DNA of 64,000 nucleotides from Thalassotalea agarivorans. Lineage in GTDB: Bacteria > Pseudomonadota > Gammaproteobacteria > Enterobacterales > Alteromonadaceae. Numbering within the stretch: the stretch's first letter is position 1; the number at the start of each line of letters is the position of its first letter. The DNA lies in assembly GCF_030295955.1 (NCBI RefSeq), contig NZ_AP027363.1:1116001-1180000 (forward strand), read 5' to 3'. The notes under the pieces were generated by a model, which was not told the origin of the DNA, searched no databases, and worked only from the letters and a program-made list of their open reading frames with translations. The position numbers and the translations under genes were made by a program. This document shows positions 9,462-61,200 of this stretch, in pieces.

Positions 9462-9574
9462 TGGTGACCCTTTGGTCCCCTCGCAATGATACTCTGTGAA
9501 CTCGGCCAGGTCCGGAAGGAAGCAACCGCAGCAGACGACTCATGTGCCGGGGTGTGGCTGAAGGGTTACCACCC
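9462..9574 (+). ncRNA. ffs: Signal recognition particle RNA (4.5S RNA)
   Basis: This is the small bacterial SRP RNA. It contains the invariant Ffh-binding stretch tccggaaggaagca and the opposing ...gactcatgtgccgggg... arm. The terminal helix forms between TGGTGACCC (9462-9470) and GGGTTACCA (9563-9571). With Ffh it targets inner-membrane proteins co-translationally. A strong promoter lies upstream and a seven-T run follows near 9590. Mature ends were estimated from the pairing, so they may be off by a few bases. Confidence 0.95.
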
Positions 9575-52169: not shown

Positions 52170-54059
52170 CTAAAGATTCTGCGGTTTACCGATGTAAAAG
52201 CCTTGGCACCCGTCCACAAACAATCGTTCTAAGGTGTGTTTCTCTTCCTGTGTTTCAACGCTTTCAGCGAGGACATAAATACTTAATCTATGCGCCAAAT
52301 CTACCATCAAGCGAAGGAAATACTGATTATTCTTATCTTCGTCAATATCACGCGTATAGGTAGCGTCCATTTTGATAAAGTCCGGCTTAAGATCTCTAAA
52401 GAATTTAAATGAGGTTAAACCAACACCAAAGCGCTCAACGGTAATACGAGAACCGACGCGATGTAACATATCGATGAATCGCTTACTGGTTCTAATGTTT
52501 TGTTGTAAGCCATATTCGGTAATCTCAAATACAAGCTTAGGTGCAACTTTAGGTTCTCTAAGTAGGCGACGCTCTAACCAAACCAAGAACTGCTCGTCAT
52601 GGATGGTACGTGCACTAATATTGATGCCGTAACTTTGATCGTACAAATTCTTGTTATTAATTTCAGCAATCGCTGTTTCAATCACAAGTTTGTCGACAGC
52701 GACGATGCGATCAAGTTTTTCCGCCATGGCGATAAATGACGCTGTCGGCAACATTTCTTCGTTGCTATTTAAAAAGCGCGCAAGGATTTCGCCGTAAGCA
52801 CGTGTGTTTCGATTACTTGGCTTGATATGTTGAACAAGCAAAATAATACGCTCGTTTTCAAGTACACCATCAATTTCTTGGCGCCAATTTTGGTTACCAT
52901 AGTTCGCACTAGTGCTTTTTAATATGTCAGTATCACGTTGCGAATGATATGAATTAACTTGTTGCGTTTGAGCAACACTAATACCCGTATCGGCAAGTGC
53001 TAACAATTCACCTAAAGGCTTTTGTTTGTCAAAATAGACCAAACCAGTATTGGCTACAGAATCTAATTCAGAAGAGGTCTGGAAGTCGTCAAATTGTCGT
53101 GACAAATCTTTTGCATACTCTTCAGCGTCTTGCAGTTTGGTATTAGGAATGATGGTGGCAAAGTCAGAGCTATTAATTCTGAACAATTCAGCGCCTTGAT
53201 ATTTTTGCGCTGACTTTTTCATAATTTCCGCAACGGCAAGTATGTATTTATCGCCTTCGTGGTAACCATGAATTTGGTTGATGGTTTGTAATTCTGAACA
53301 ACGCGTAATTAATAGCACACCAAATTCTATTTCATCGTTTTGGTTGATCTTGTTTTCATAGAACTGAACAAACGCATTACGGTTATAAAAACCGGTTAGC
53401 TTTTCGTAATAGGCTTCTTTTTCAAGTGCAGATGAGTTCTCTACTTGAGATTCAATCAATTGATGAATTTCACTTAAGCCCTTTTTCAGCTCAGGGATTT
53501 CAACAATATCAGGATCAGCACCGCGCGCTACATCGGGCTTCATGACGTGATCAATTTCTTGCTTAATTTGGCGGTTGAAACCGTCAAAGATACGCTTGTA
53601 CTTAGTGGTACTTAGGTACGCTGACAAGGTCAAAAATAGCGCAGTTGCAGCGATCATGATCAAAATTATTGTAGAGACAAGTGATACTTGTTTTGAAAAG
53701 TCCAGCAAATAACTGATTTTAACTTGATGATCTTTAATGATGATTTGTTTCGGTTGCGGCGAGACTAAATTAACCAAAAAGTTAGTTTTACTATTTTTAT
53801 AGTTAGTCAGCTTGTCACCCGAAATAATATCGATGTTCAATTGCTGAAAGGTAAAGCTTCGTTGCAAAGTTTTGCTAAGAAGGTTAGCTTCTGTGTTGTT
53901 CAACGTTTGTGTAGCAAGACTACGTATCGTCTGCTGAGAGTCTTGCTGAACTTGTTCTAAGTAGCTCGACAAAACCGTTAAACTTAATACTGCCATGGTG
54001 ATGCTAAACAACACACCTAAAACAGTATTTCGAATCAGAAGTTGAGAAAACGTGTACAT
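52170..54059 (-). CDS. csrD: CsrD-like protein with degenerate GGDEF and EAL domains
   Basis: A 629-residue inner-membrane protein. Two transmembrane helices flank a periplasmic segment (about 20-135). Then come a GGDEF domain whose active site reads NSSDF and an EAL domain whose signature reads GEILARF. Both catalytic motifs are lost, as in E. coli CsrD (646 residues), which makes CsrB/C RNAs sensitive to RNase E without making or cutting c-di-GMP. I choose the ATG ending at 54059; an upstream TTG start at 54071 is possible. It could instead be another inactive GGDEF-EAL protein. Confidence 0.75.
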   Translation of the reverse strand: MYTFSQLLIRNTVLGVLFSITMAVLSLTVLSSYLEQVQQDSQQTIRSLATQTLNNTEANLLSKTLQRSFTFQQLNIDIISGDKLTNYKNSKTNFLVNLVSPQPKQIIIKDHQVKISYLLDFSKQVSLVSTIILIMIAATALFLTLSAYLSTTKYKRIFDGFNRQIKQEIDHVMKPDVARGADPDIVEIPELKKGLSEIHQLIESQVENSSALEKEAYYEKLTGFYNRNAFVQFYENKINQNDEIEFGVLLITRCSELQTINQIHGYHEGDKYILAVAEIMKKSAQKYQGAELFRINSSDFATIIPNTKLQDAEEYAKDLSRQFDDFQTSSELDSVANTGLVYFDKQKPLGELLALADTGISVAQTQQVNSYHSQRDTDILKSTSANYGNQNWRQEIDGVLENERIILLVQHIKPSNRNTRAYGEILARFLNSNEEMLPTASFIAMAEKLDRIVAVDKLVIETAIAEINNKNLYDQSYGINISARTIHDEQFLVWLERRLLREPKVAPKLVFEITEYGLQQNIRTSKRFIDMLHRVGSRITVERFGVGLTSFKFFRDLKPDFIKMDATYTRDIDEDKNNQYFLRLMVDLAHRLSIYVLAESVETQEEKHTLERLFVDGCQGFYIGKPQNL

Positions 54060-54071
54060 ATTCGCGTCCAA

Positions 54072-54440: not shown

Positions 54441-54469
54441 TTGTATTACTAGTGTTGTGGCTATATAAT
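54441..54469 (+). promoter_or_regulatory. Strong sigma-70 promoter for the candidate small RNA / nus operon leader
   Basis: TTGTAT (54441-54446), a 17-bp spacer and a perfect TATAAT (54464-54469) make one of the best sigma-70 promoters in the window. Predicted start is about 54476. Confidence 0.75.
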
Positions 54470-54475
54470 TCGTGC

Positions 54476-54610
54476 AGTTTTTAATTATTGTATGCACCAC
54501 TGAGTAGTTTTGCGTTTTTAACTCAAAACTATTGCATAGAATAATTCGACGGGATAGCCCGTCACACAAAGGGTTCAGTGAAATAAAGCCCCGCGTGCAG
54601 GGGCTTTTTT
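54476..54610 (+). ncRNA. Candidate small RNA (about 135 nt), or attenuated leader of rimP-nusA-infB
   Basis: The interval runs from a strong promoter to a strong terminator and encodes no protein. Three stems are visible. Stem I has TATGCA/TGCATA (54491-54496 with 54533-54538) enclosing TAGTTTTG/CAAAACTA (54505-54512 with 54524-54531). Stem II is GACGGG-atag-CCCGTC (54548-54563). Stem III is the terminator. A 21-nt single-stranded linker (54564-54584) could be a pairing region. I recognise no Rfam family, and it is not a tRNA. Transcripts reading through would enter rimP. Confidence 0.55.
54585..54610 (+). terminator. Rho-independent terminator of the candidate small RNA
   Basis: AAAGCCCC-gcgtgca-GGGGCTTT is an 8-bp stem followed by more T. 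Confidence 0.9.
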
Positions 54611-54656
54611 GTTTCTGAAAGTGAACATTTTAACCTTTTGATTAGGTTTATTCGCT

Positions 54657-54677
54657 GGGCTATACGCCCTTTTTTTG
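54657..54677 (+). terminator. Second, short terminator-like hairpin before rimP
   Basis: GGGC-tatac-GCCC followed by seven T, about 17 nt before the rimP start. The 4-bp stem is weak, so it would act at most as a partial terminator or attenuator for rimP-nusA-infB. Confidence 0.5.
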
Positions 54678-54693
54678 TTTCTGGAGAACACAT

Positions 54694-55155
54694 TTGGCTA
54701 AATTTGAACAAAAATTGACTGAGATTTTGCGTCCGGCTGTCGAAGAGACAGGCAAGGAATTATTAGGTGTTGAATTTATCAGCGCAGGCAACAATTCAGT
54801 TTTACGTTTGTTTATCGATCACCCAGACGGCATTAACGTCGACGACTGTGCGGAAGTTAGTCATCAAGTTGGTGCAATTTTGGATGTCGAGGACCCTATT
54901 AGTACAGAATACAATTTAGAGGTGTCTTCACCTGGTTTAGACCGACCTCTATTTGAAAAAGCCCACTTTGAAGCCGTTGTGGGTGAAATTATTAATGTCA
55001 AAACGTCAATGCCTATTGATGGTCGTCGCAAATTCAAAGGGACGTTAGAAGCGATAGAAAATGACACTTTGATTGTAATCGTTGATGGTCAAGATTATGA
55101 ACTGACTATCGGTAATGTAGATAAAGCAAATCTTGTCCATCAATTCGACAAGTAA
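54694..55155 (+). CDS. rimP: Ribosome maturation factor RimP
   Basis: RimP (153 residues) helps assemble the 30S subunit. The N-terminal domain contains GKELLGVEFISAGNNSVLRL and the conserved FIDHPDGINVDDCAEVS; the C-terminal domain is an SH3-like barrel. The start is TTG with CTGGAGAA upstream. It opens the rimP-nusA-infB cluster; in E. coli a tRNA gene precedes it, but here there is a small RNA-like leader instead. Confidence 0.95.
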   Translation: MAKFEQKLTEILRPAVEETGKELLGVEFISAGNNSVLRLFIDHPDGINVDDCAEVSHQVGAILDVEDPISTEYNLEVSSPGLDRPLFEKAHFEAVVGEIINVKTSMPIDGRRKFKGTLEAIENDTLIVIVDGQDYELTIGNVDKANLVHQFDK

Positions 55156-55172: not shown

Positions 55173-56672
55173 ATGACTAAGGAAGTATTACTAGTAGTTG
55201 ATACCGTTTCGAATGAAAAAGCTGTATCGAGAGAGAGTATATTCCAAGCATTAGAAACTGCATTGGAAACAGCGACAAAGAAAAAGTACGAAGGTGATAT
55301 TGCCGTTCGCGTTGAAATTGATCGTGAAACAGGTGAGTTTGATACATTTCGTCGTTGGTTAGTTGTTGATGATGCTGAGCAACCATTAGAAAATCCATAT
55401 GCCGAAATTTCTCTTGCGGCAGCACAGTATGATGACAGCACAAAGGAAGTTGGCGATTACGTTGAAGAACAAATTGAATCAGTAAAGTTTGACCGTATTA
55501 CGACACAAACAGCTAAGCAAGTTATCGTACAGAAAGTTCGAGAAGCAGAGCGCGCTTTGATTGTTGATGCATATCAAGATCAAGTAGGTGAGCTAATCAC
55601 CGGTGTTGTTAAGAAAGCAAGCCGTGACAACGTTATTTTAGATTTAGGCAATAACGCAGAAGCAATTATCTATCGCGATGACATGTTGCCACGCGAAGTA
55701 TTCCGTCCGGGCGATCGAGTACGCGGTTTGTTGTATGCGATTAAGCCTGAAGCACGTGGTGCGCAGTTATTTGTGAGCCGCACTAAGCCAGAAATGCTGG
55801 TTGAGTTATTCCGTGTTGAAGTACCAGAAATTGGTGAAGAAATGCTTGAGATCAAGGGCGCCGCTCGTGATCCAGGTTCTCGTGCCAAAATCGCAGTTAA
55901 AAGTAACGATAAGCGTATCGACCCAGTTGGTGCGTGTGTTGGTATGCGTGGTTCTCGTGTGCAAGCTGTATCTGGCGAATTGGGCGGTGAGCGCGTTGAT
56001 ATCGTATTGTTTGACGACAATCCAGCACAATTTGTTATCAATGCGATGGCGCCTGCTGAAGTAGCATCTATTATTGTTGATGAAGACAGACGCACAATGG
56101 ACATCGCAGTTGAAGAAGACAACCTAGCAATGGCGATTGGTCGTAGTGGTCAAAACGTTCGTTTAGCAAGCCAATTAACGGCTTGGGAACTGAACGTAAT
56201 GACAACAGCTGATATGCAAGAGAAGCATCAAGCTGAAAATGACAAAGTATTAGGTCTATTCACTGAGAAGTTAGATATTGACGAAGACTTTGCAACGATT
56301 CTTGCTGACGAAGGTTTCACGTCTTTAGAAGAAATTGCTTACGTACCAGTACAAGAGTTATTGGAAATCGATGGTATGGATGAAGATATCGTCGAAGAAC
56401 TGCGTAACCGTGCAAAAGCAGCGTTAACTACACAAGCGTTAGCTGACGAAGAATCATTAGAAGGTGCAGAACCAGCTGAAGATTTATTAAACCTTGAAGG
56501 TTTAGACAAGCACCTAGCATACGTATTAGCGAGTAAAGGCGTTGTAACGTTAGAAGACCTGGCGGAGCAGGGCGTAGACGACCTAGTAGATATTGAAGAG
56601 CTAAATGAAGAGCAAGCAGGTGAATTAATAATGGCTGCTCGTAACATTTGTTGGTTTAGCGAAGAAGAGTAA
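55173..56672 (+). CDS. nusA: Transcription termination/antitermination protein NusA
   Basis: NusA (499 residues, E. coli 495) binds RNA polymerase and modulates pausing, termination and antitermination. Domains: N-terminal RNAP-binding (1-125), S1 (about 135-200), KH1 and KH2 (about 205-345, with [20 protein letters not shown] and [16 protein letters not shown]). Two acidic C-terminal helix-hairpin-helix repeats follow (about 365-495). It lies 17 nt after rimP and 19 nt before infB. Confidence 0.97.
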
Positions 56673-56691: not shown

Positions 56692-59376
56692 ATGGCAGAA
56701 GTAACAGTTGAACAACTTGCCGAAGAAATTGGTGCTACCGTTGATAAATTGGTAAGCCAATTTGAAGAAACTGGGGTGAAGAAAGTTGCCACAGATGTCG
56801 TTTCGGAAGAAGAAAAAGAAGCACTATTAGAGCATCTTAAAAAACAACATGGCGATGATTCAGCGGCTAAACCAAACAAAATGACGTTAAGCCGTAAGAA
56901 AAAATCAACGCTTGTATTGGGCTCAGGTAGCAAGGCTAAATCTGTGCAAGTAGAAGTACGTAAAAAACGTACTTACGTAAAACGCAGTGAGCTAGAAGAG
57001 CAGCAAATTAAAGAAGCTGAAGAAAAAGCGGCAGCAGAAGCTAAGGCGCAAGCTGAAGCAAACGCGAAAGCAGCAGCGGAAGCAGCAGCGAAGGAAAAAA
57101 TTGCAGCCGAAGCGGCAGCAAAAGCGCGTGCAGAAGCAGCGGCTGAAGAAAAAGCGAAAGCAAAAGCTGAAGCAGATGCTAAAGCGAAAGAAGCAGCAAA
57201 AGCTAAAGCGAAAGAAATAGAAGCTAAGCCACAACCAGATCCGCAAGAATCTGAAGAAGCTAAGAAGCTAAGAGAAGCGCAAGAAGCTGAAGCTCGTGCT
57301 AAGGCAGAAGCTGAAGCAGCGGCAGCAGCAGAAGCGGCTCGTAAATTAGCGGAAGAAAATGAAGCTCGTTGGAAAGCGCAAGAAGAAGAGCGTAAAGCAC
57401 ATGAAAATGATGTTGTGCATTTAACCTCTTCTAAATATGCCCAAGAAGCTGAAGACGCAGTAGACAAAGAAGAAGAAGGTGGCGGTCGCCGTCGCAAGAA
57501 GAAAAAAGCAGGCAAGCAGCAAGATGCTCAAGTAGCCTTCAAAGGCAAAGGGAAGAAAGGCAAGAAAACGCTTTCTGCTCCGCAAAGCTTACAGCACGGT
57601 TTCCAAAAGCCTGTTGAAAAGAAAACCAAAGAAATTCGCATTGGTGAAACAATTTCAGTCGCTGAACTAGCTAACAAAATGGCGGTTAAAGGTGCTGAAG
57701 TTGTAAAAGAAATGTTCAAAATGGGGGCAATGGCAACCATTAACCAAGTGATTGACCAAGAAACAGCGGCGCTAGTTGCTGAAGAAATGGGTCACAATGT
57801 TGTACTAGTGAAAGAAAATGCCCTTGAAGAAGCGGTGCTATCAGATCGTGGTGATGCAGGTGATGCGGTTACACGTGCACCGGTTGTTACTATCATGGGT
57901 CACGTTGACCACGGTAAAACATCATTACTTGATTACATTCGCGAAGCTAAGGTAGCTGCCGGCGAAGCAGGTGGTATTACACAGCACATTGGTGCATACC
58001 ACGTAGAAACTGAAGGTGGCATGGTAACCTTCTTAGATACACCAGGTCACGCGGCGTTTACATCAATGCGTTCACGTGGTGCGAAAGCAACAGATATCGT
58101 TATTATCGTTGTTGCTGCAGATGACGGCGTGATGCCGCAAACAATTGAAGCAATTCAGCATGCTAAGGCAGCTGAGGTGCCAATTATTATCGCAGTTAAC
58201 AAAATGGATAAAGAAACAGCTGATCCTGATCGCGTTAAGAATGAGTTGTCGCAGCACGATATTATCCCAGAAGATTGGGGTGGTGATACGCAATTTGTTC
58301 ACGTTTCTGCGAAAACCGGTTTGGGTATTGATGAGTTACTTGAGTCAGTATTACTACAATCAGAAGTACTTGAATTAACCGCTATTGTCGACAAGATGGC
58401 AAATGGTGTCGTAATTGAATCTAAGCTTGATAAAGGCCGCGGTCCAGTTGCAACAATTCTTGTACAAGAAGGTACATTGAATCAAGGCGACATCGTGTTA
58501 TGTGGTTTAGAATATGGCCGTGTTCGTGCGATGCGCGACGAGTTGGGTAAAACCATCACGTCAGCAGGTCCATCAATTCCAGTAGAAATTATTGGTTTAA
58601 GTGGTGTGCCTCAGTCAGGTGACGAAGCGACAGTTGTTAAAGACGAGAAGAAAGCACGTGAAGTTGCGTTGTACCGTCAAGGTAAGTTCAGAGACGTTAA
58701 ATTAGCACGTCAGCAAAAAGCGAAACTTGAGAACATGTTCTCAGATATGGCTGAAGGTGATGTGTCTGAAGTCAACGTAGTATTGAAGTCAGACGTACAA
58801 GGTTCACTAGAAGCGATTTCAGATGCGCTTGTTAAGCTATCAACAGAAGAAGTTAAGGTGAAAATCATCGGCTCTGGTGTTGGTGGTATTACTGAAACAG
58901 ACGCATCCTTAGCCGCGGCATCAAATGCTATCGTTGTTGGTTTTAACGTTCGTGCCGATGCATCTGCGCGTCGTGTCATTGAATCAGAAGGTGTCGATTT
59001 ACGTTACTACAGCGTTATCTACGACCTAATCGACGAAGTGAAGCAAGCAATGAGCGGTTTACTTGCACCAGAATTCAAGCAAGAAATCATTGGTCTTGCT
59101 GAAGTACGTGACGTATTTAAGTCACCAAAAATTGGTGCTATCGCAGGTTGTATGGTAACTGAGGGTATCATCAAGCGTAACAACCCAATTCGTGTACTTC
59201 GCGAAAATGTTGTTATCTACGAAGGTGAACTTGAGTCGCTACGCCGCTTTAAAGACGACGTACAAGAAGTTCGTAACGGTACTGAGTGTGGTATCGGTGT
59301 TAAGAACTACAACGACGTAAAAGTGGGCGACCAAATCGAAGTATTTGAAACAGTAGAAGTGAAGCGTTCGCTTTAA
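56692..59376 (+). CDS. infB: Translation initiation factor IF-2
   Basis: The initiator-tRNA-binding GTPase, 894 residues. It starts with an IF2N motif ([20 protein letters not shown]). A long Ala/Glu/Lys-rich helical linker (about 100-230), a second IF2N region (about 315-370) and the G domain follow, with [25 protein letters not shown] and [10 protein letters not shown]. Domains II-IV complete it. The linker is the size-variable part of IF-2 and lies on the same strand as a spurious complementary reading frame. A terminator follows. Confidence 0.97.
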
Positions 59377-60861: not shown

Positions 60862-60930
60862 CTTTGATTCCTGCGCTGAATTAGTGTTTGGCCAGGACGA
60901 TGTAACACTTTAAACACTAAGGTAATTATT
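60862..60930 (+). promoter_or_regulatory. rpsO leader, probable S15 autoregulatory site
   Basis: A roughly 65-nt leader precedes rpsO. It has a GTGTTTGGCC...TGTAACAC arm pair and a TAAACACTAAGG ribosome-site region that could form the alternating hairpin/pseudoknot known to bind S15 in E. coli. I could not fold it in full. Confidence 0.45.
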
Positions 60931-61200
60931 ATGTCTTTAAATGCAGCAGAAAAAGCAGCAGTAGTTGCAGAATACGCAACTAAAGAAGGTGACACTGGTT
61001 CTCCAGAGGTTCAAGTAGCTTTATTAACTACTCAAATTAACCACTTACAAGGTCACTTCAAAGCACACATCCACGATCATCACTCACGTCGTGGTCTATT
61101 ACGCATGGTAAGCCAACGTCGTAAGCTTCTTGACTACTTGAAGCGTAAAGATGTAGAGCGTTACACTGCGTTAATCGGTAAGTTAGGTCTACGTCGTTAA
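60931..61200 (+). CDS. rpsO: 30S ribosomal protein S15
   Basis: An 89-residue primary 16S rRNA-binding protein. The sequence has [20 protein letters not shown] and [20 protein letters not shown], both diagnostic. CTAAGG lies before the ATG. It has its own promoter and leader and is closed by a strong terminator. S15 represses its own translation in relatives. In relatives pnp usually follows rpsO, but it is not adjacent here. Confidence 0.98.

Follow-up and report, generated by a model that had tools for sequence, protein, structure and literature searches.

A lineage-specific 5′ domain with a conserved potential pseudoknot precedes the known rimP leader in Colwellia-type bacteria

The 64,000-nucleotide stretch of Thalassotalea agarivorans DNA analysed here (the window) carries, directly upstream of rimP-nusA-infB, a structured leader that we judge, with a probability of about 0.6, to be a transcription attenuator in which a member of the known family RF01770 is fused to a lineage-specific 5′ domain. 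By its alignment to the Rfam model, the 3′ half of this leader is the ordinary, known rimP leader; the 5′ domain is apparently an undescribed, well-supported, lineage-specific structural addition to this attenuator family, and the open-licence literature yielded no paper that mentions a pseudoknot or a 5′ domain for the rimP leader. A sequence-only reading of the same DNA had offered either a free-standing small RNA or a leader through which NusA tunes its own operon by termination; the second agrees best with our results, and NusA autoregulation through the Gammaproteobacterial rimP leader was already proposed in 2010, together with a description of the tandem terminators (PMC2965389). The features are given below in window coordinates.

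54441–54469, plus strand: promoter TTGTAT-17-TATAAT, from sequence; kept in Colwellia-type leaders
54476–54610, plus: Colwellia-type leader up to terminator 1 (t1), matched by covariance models (CMs) R1 and R2
54483–54546, plus: stem I, made of P1 and its capping hairpin P2 (minimum free energy (MFE) fold, covariation)
54483–54489/54540–54546 and 54491–54496/54533–54538, plus: P1 pairs (MFE fold)
54504–54512/54524–54532, plus: hairpin P2, capping P1 (MFE fold)
54497–54504, plus: 5′ bulge of stem I, CCACUGA plus G, the putative pseudoknot 5′ strand (MFE fold, complementarity)
54548–54563, plus: stem II, GACGGG-AUAG-CCCGUC (fold, covariation)
54552–54676, plus: Rfam RF01770 rimP leader match, 57.6 bits (gathering cut-off 47)
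54571–54580, plus: GGGUUCAGUG, conserved GGG and putative pseudoknot 3′ strand (54574–54580), a possible switch strand (alignments A3/A4)
54585–54610, plus: t1, GCCCC...GGGGC plus U-tract, CCCg...cGGG type (fold, terminator scan, RF01770 alignment)
54651–54660, plus: UUCGCUGGGC, 5′ arm of terminator 2 (t2), from computed complementarity; function inferred
54657–54676, plus: t2, GGGC-UAUAC-GCCC-U7, GGGc...gCCC type (RF01770 alignment, published motif)
54694–55155, plus: rimP, TTG start (NCBIfam NF000927, 211.6 bits, cut-off 162)
55173–56672, plus: nusA (TIGR01953, 410 bits, cut-off 253.4)
56692–59376, plus: infB, IF-2 (TIGR00487, 930.7 bits, cut-off 424.4)

The leader begins with a −10 hexamer (54464–54469) that lies 17 nt downstream of TTGTAT (54441–54446), as the sequence-only reading had it. 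The upstream hexamer agrees with TTGACA at three of six positions and was not listed in a consensus promoter scan; the promoter is nevertheless very likely real, because TTG-17-TATAAT is present in 45 of 46 related Colwellia-type leaders, a count in which TATAAT served as the anchor while the TTG and its spacing were left unanchored. Termination at t1 would yield a predicted RNA of ~135 nt, its start being placed by the position of the −10 hexamer. The corresponding interval, previously described as having three stems of which the last is a strong terminator, folds as such at −45 kcal/mol, compared with −27.2 ± 3.6 in dinucleotide shuffles (z = −4.95; 0 of 200 shuffles as good), and terminator-like sites in the scanned region, both strands included, number 4 against 0.6 expected. 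This extent captured the stems and t1 correctly but ended too early, missing a second terminator (GGGCUAUACGCCC-U7); the element continues to 54676. The earlier reading also overlooked the 7-nt 5′ bulge of stem I and its complementarity to the strand in front of t1.

The earlier reading recognised no family for the element; this does not hold for its 3′ half, which Rfam assigns to RF01770. The tandem terminators characteristic of that family are both there, t1 followed by t2, each with a U-tract; GGGUUCAGUG before t1 is the counterpart of AGGGUCCAG in the Rfam consensus; and the element sits immediately upstream of the expected operon. RF01770 was detected in all 52 genera searched within the family. 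No other Rfam family scored above threshold in the leader, with no riboswitch or r-protein leader matching the 5′ domain, and the leaders of ten relatives matched no other family at E ≤ 0.05; asX2, rseX, Phe leader and other weak matches fell below their cut-offs, reflect the terminator and were rejected. Elsewhere in the window, 4.5S (small SRP) RNA at 9470–9566 and an S15 (rpsO) leader at 60868–60987 both exceed their Rfam cut-offs and are ordinary, and the minus strand at 52170–54071 encodes a divergent GGDEF/EAL protein whose similarity to CsrD (197 bits) and LapD (215 bits) stays under the curated cut-off in each case.

Upstream of the part modelled by Rfam, relatives share a common architecture consisting of P1, a CACUGA bulge, P2, stem II, GGG-UCAGUG and t1, and the window leader presents the same succession from P1 to t1. 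Its 7-nt bulge CCACUGA (54497–54503) is unpaired in an MFE fold that was computed without knowledge of the relatives' architecture. A MAFFT alignment of diverse leaders (A1) misaligned the stems and was dropped; cmsearch was then used to extend a model that started from a single genus group. R1, built on alignment A2 (nine leaders of one genus group, the window leader excluded), detects the window leader over its full length at 62 bits (E = 2.5e-10). R2, built from 45 leaders including that of the window, has a single confident match in the window's genome (91.5 bits, E 9.4e-14); within the family, 89 of 397 genomes, from 17 of 52 genera, yield one match each. Among the carriers are Colwellia sp. 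MB02u-6 (L034), Colwellia sp. D2M02 (L033), Thalassomonas sp. RHCl1 (L032) and L015, and at every locus examined within the family the 5′ domain sits at rimP. An order-wide sample gave no convincing R2 match outside the family; four weak matches there, three to plain rimP leaders and one at a locus without rimP, were set aside, and CACUGA occurs in none of them. Across the related leaders, comparison shows a conserved order of predicted elements: promoter, stem I with its bulge, stem II, UCAGUG, t1, t2 and rimP.

Covariation among relatives bears out stems I and II. In alignment A3, both-side changes occur at every model pair of these stems (13/13 in P1, 7/7 in P2 and 7/7 in stem II) and at 32 of 41 pairs in all, and 93% of cells are paired compared with 32–46% when partners are slid. 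These observations speak against the possibility that the window holds an ordinary rimP leader and nothing more, its upstream stems being incidental and the pseudoknot complementarity due to chance. Rfam models the terminator part only and Naville and Gautheret did not find a larger conserved element (PMC2965389), both as would be expected of a plain leader; with covariation at 27 of 27 pairs of P1, P2 and stem II, however, and CM matches in 17 genera, we regard this explanation as very improbable.

CACUGAG of the bulge is complementary to UUCAGUG at 54574–54580, just before t1. The alignments show that the CACUGA bulge and the UCAGUG strand can form a conserved pseudoknot: 96.3% of cells are paired, compared with 20–43% when the strands are slid, in an alignment (A3) whose fitting used P1, P2 and stem II but no pseudoknot, a feature that a CM cannot represent. 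Both-side changes number nine cells at three of seven pairs, counts that ignore kinship and include some genera represented by several genomes; the core CACUG/CAGUG is nearly invariant, so the covariation is limited and comes from few genera. Compensated variants are CACUAA:UUAGUG (L019) and UUCACUAAA:UUUAGUGAA (L159), and the pairing also occurs as CACUGAC:GUCAGUG (L147, L026, L031) and as CACUGAG:CUCAGUG (L005, L027, L029). In L167 (CACUGAAG:CUUCGGUG) a U-A pair has become U-G, the corresponding bulge of L170 has a wholly different pairing, UUAGAU:AUCUAA, and a few leaders (L033, L238, L156) carry one mismatched pair.

The position occupied by the 5′ domain is elsewhere that of a tRNA gene. 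ARAGORN found no tRNA in the window, so this is not a metY tRNA leader; the genome has two initiator tRNA genes elsewhere, at 1626372–1626735. No tRNA lies at rimP in Colwellia-type loci, and tRNA-Met is found there in Vibrio, Aeromonadaceae, Kangiella, Enterobacteriaceae and several Alteromonadaceae genera. Judged from these gene arrangements, an extra 5′ domain with the predicted pseudoknot is in place of metY in Colwellia-type genomes. The earlier suggestion that the leader replaces the tRNA thus holds as far as the missing tRNA goes, but not for the leader as a whole, since E. coli-type genomes (L110, L044) keep the same rimP leader downstream of metY.

Further elements occur upstream of rimP. 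Alteromonas-type genera (L037–L040, L164–L166, L169, L172) have a different one in the metY slot, a GGCUCCCU...AGUAACG hairpin directly after the promoter, which had no Rfam match in the four leaders tested (L037–L040); L125, L129 and L133 carry a related stretch whose end resembles a tRNA 3′ end (...CACAACCA). Genus g2 (L022, L028, L035, which is Thalassomonas sp. M1454, and L142–L146) has another 5′ hairpin with a loop, ACUCU, complementary to AGGGU(U) before t1, extending in L028 to ACAACUC with GGGUUGU; this may represent the same long-range interaction shifted in register. In genus g10 (L170, L226), far-5′ UUGGGGU/UGGGG is complementary to the t1 5′ arm GCCCCAA, a possible distal antiterminator, and in L168 the sequence upstream of rimP holds an initiator tRNA and, after it, a tandem duplicate of the tRNA's 3′ half plus downstream flank.

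How the 5′ domain might act is suggested by a second complementarity. UUCGCUGGGC can pair with GUUCAGUGAA (54573–54582) through 10 contiguous pairs, 7 of them Watson-Crick. GUUCAGUGAA therefore has two mutually exclusive candidate partners: the 5′ bulge, which is made first, and the t2 arm, which is made last. Most leaders have a comparable t2-arm pairing, 6 pairs or longer, which is missing in L019, L030, L159 and L170; the first three belong to one genus that has lost it. Conservation of both strands has other causes, so this pairing displays little independent covariation. A candidate t1 antiterminator, GGG:CCC, is paired in 95.5% of cases, with covariation no greater than in controls, and is weak at −3.3 compared with −13 kcal/mol for t1.

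From these complementarities we infer a strand switch and its possible effector, perhaps NusA. The pseudoknot would form first and hold the UCAGUG strand, in which case t1 and t2 would form, transcription would stop and an RNA of ~135 or ~200 nt would be released. Were the 5′ domain unformed or unstabilised, GUUCAGUGAA would pair with UUCGCUGGGC and t2 would be prevented, and the short GGG:CCC pairing could likewise weaken t1; release of the switch strand from the 5′ domain would in this way protect rimP transcription. The balance may be set by a factor binding the 5′ domain, for which NusA is the favoured and most likely candidate because nusA lies in the operon and because of published grounds. 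A bolder proposal, which we put forward tentatively, is that the 5′ domain is an undescribed pseudoknotted RNA switch. It would sense NusA, IF2, a signal from ribosome assembly or a small ligand, would have taken the place of the initiator tRNA gene in Colwellia-type bacteria, and would gate rimP-nusA-infB by passing one strand between itself and the t2 arm.

One may postulate that t1 instead stops nearly all transcripts and that a pseudoknotted RNA of ~135 nt acts in trans, for example with ProQ or Hfq, the operon being driven mostly by read-through or by another promoter. The strength of t1 and the compact conserved fold would suit such a free-standing small RNA, and an enterobacterial rimP-leader RNA has been listed with attenuator-derived ProQ-associated sRNAs (PMC5391140); the element is found once per genome, however, at rimP in every family locus examined, relatives without the 5′ domain have a cis-acting rimP leader with the same t1/t2 context, and the element has no long conserved unpaired seed besides the pseudoknot strands, all of which make a role in trans distinctly unlikely. 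Somewhat easier to entertain, and still unlikely, is a passive 5′ domain, a stabiliser of the mRNA 5′ end or an RNase III site, that replaced metY while constitutive terminators fix a low level of expression: E. coli RNase III cuts between metY and rimP (PMC5371410, PMC6511841), and the long helices of P1/P2 and stem II vary freely in sequence, yet a stabiliser needs no conserved bulge complementary to a distant terminator-adjacent strand. For the attenuator, the covarying 5′ domain and pseudoknot define individual pairs that can be disrupted and then rescued, so that the proposed mechanism is testable. The Gammaproteobacterial rimP leader had previously been described without any sensor, and the slot upstream of rimP is evolutionarily fluid (metY tRNA, pseudoknot domain and others), the AGGGUYCAG strand by the terminator being retained.

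In pseudoknotted attenuators and riboswitches, such as those of the preQ1 type, the long-range pairing of a 5′ fold controls a terminator-adjacent strand; unlike riboswitches, the leader described here has no Rfam riboswitch match and is associated with a single gene in a single lineage. The first report of NusA controlling its own operon dates from 1985 (cited in PMC2965389). In Bacillus subtilis, NusA autoregulates by attenuation, and its ylxS(rimP)-nusA operon likewise has a long leader with an intrinsic terminator (PMC12288461), although in another phylum and with another terminator arrangement. The E. coli metY-rimP-nusA-infB leader also carries two terminators (t1, t2), which follow metY and precede rimP, and NusA-dependent control has been reported for it (PMC6511841); it differs in that the metY initiator tRNA occupies the slot, where no tRNA is found here. 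In Shewanella WP3, 'cis5' was annotated as rimP by Rfam, with no mechanism added (PMC5471319). In many relatives (e.g., L112 and L042), GGGUCCAG has a local UGGAC hairpin as its partner, whereas here the partner would be the distant CACUGA bulge. The closest comparison is with RF01770 as described by Naville and Gautheret in 2010, which shares the same gene, the tandem terminators CCCg..cGGG then GGGc..gCCC, and AGGGUYCAG before t1; unlike RF01770, which has no structure 5′ of t1, the leader of the window has a conserved promoter-proximal domain and a predicted long-range pseudoknot to AGGGUYCAG.
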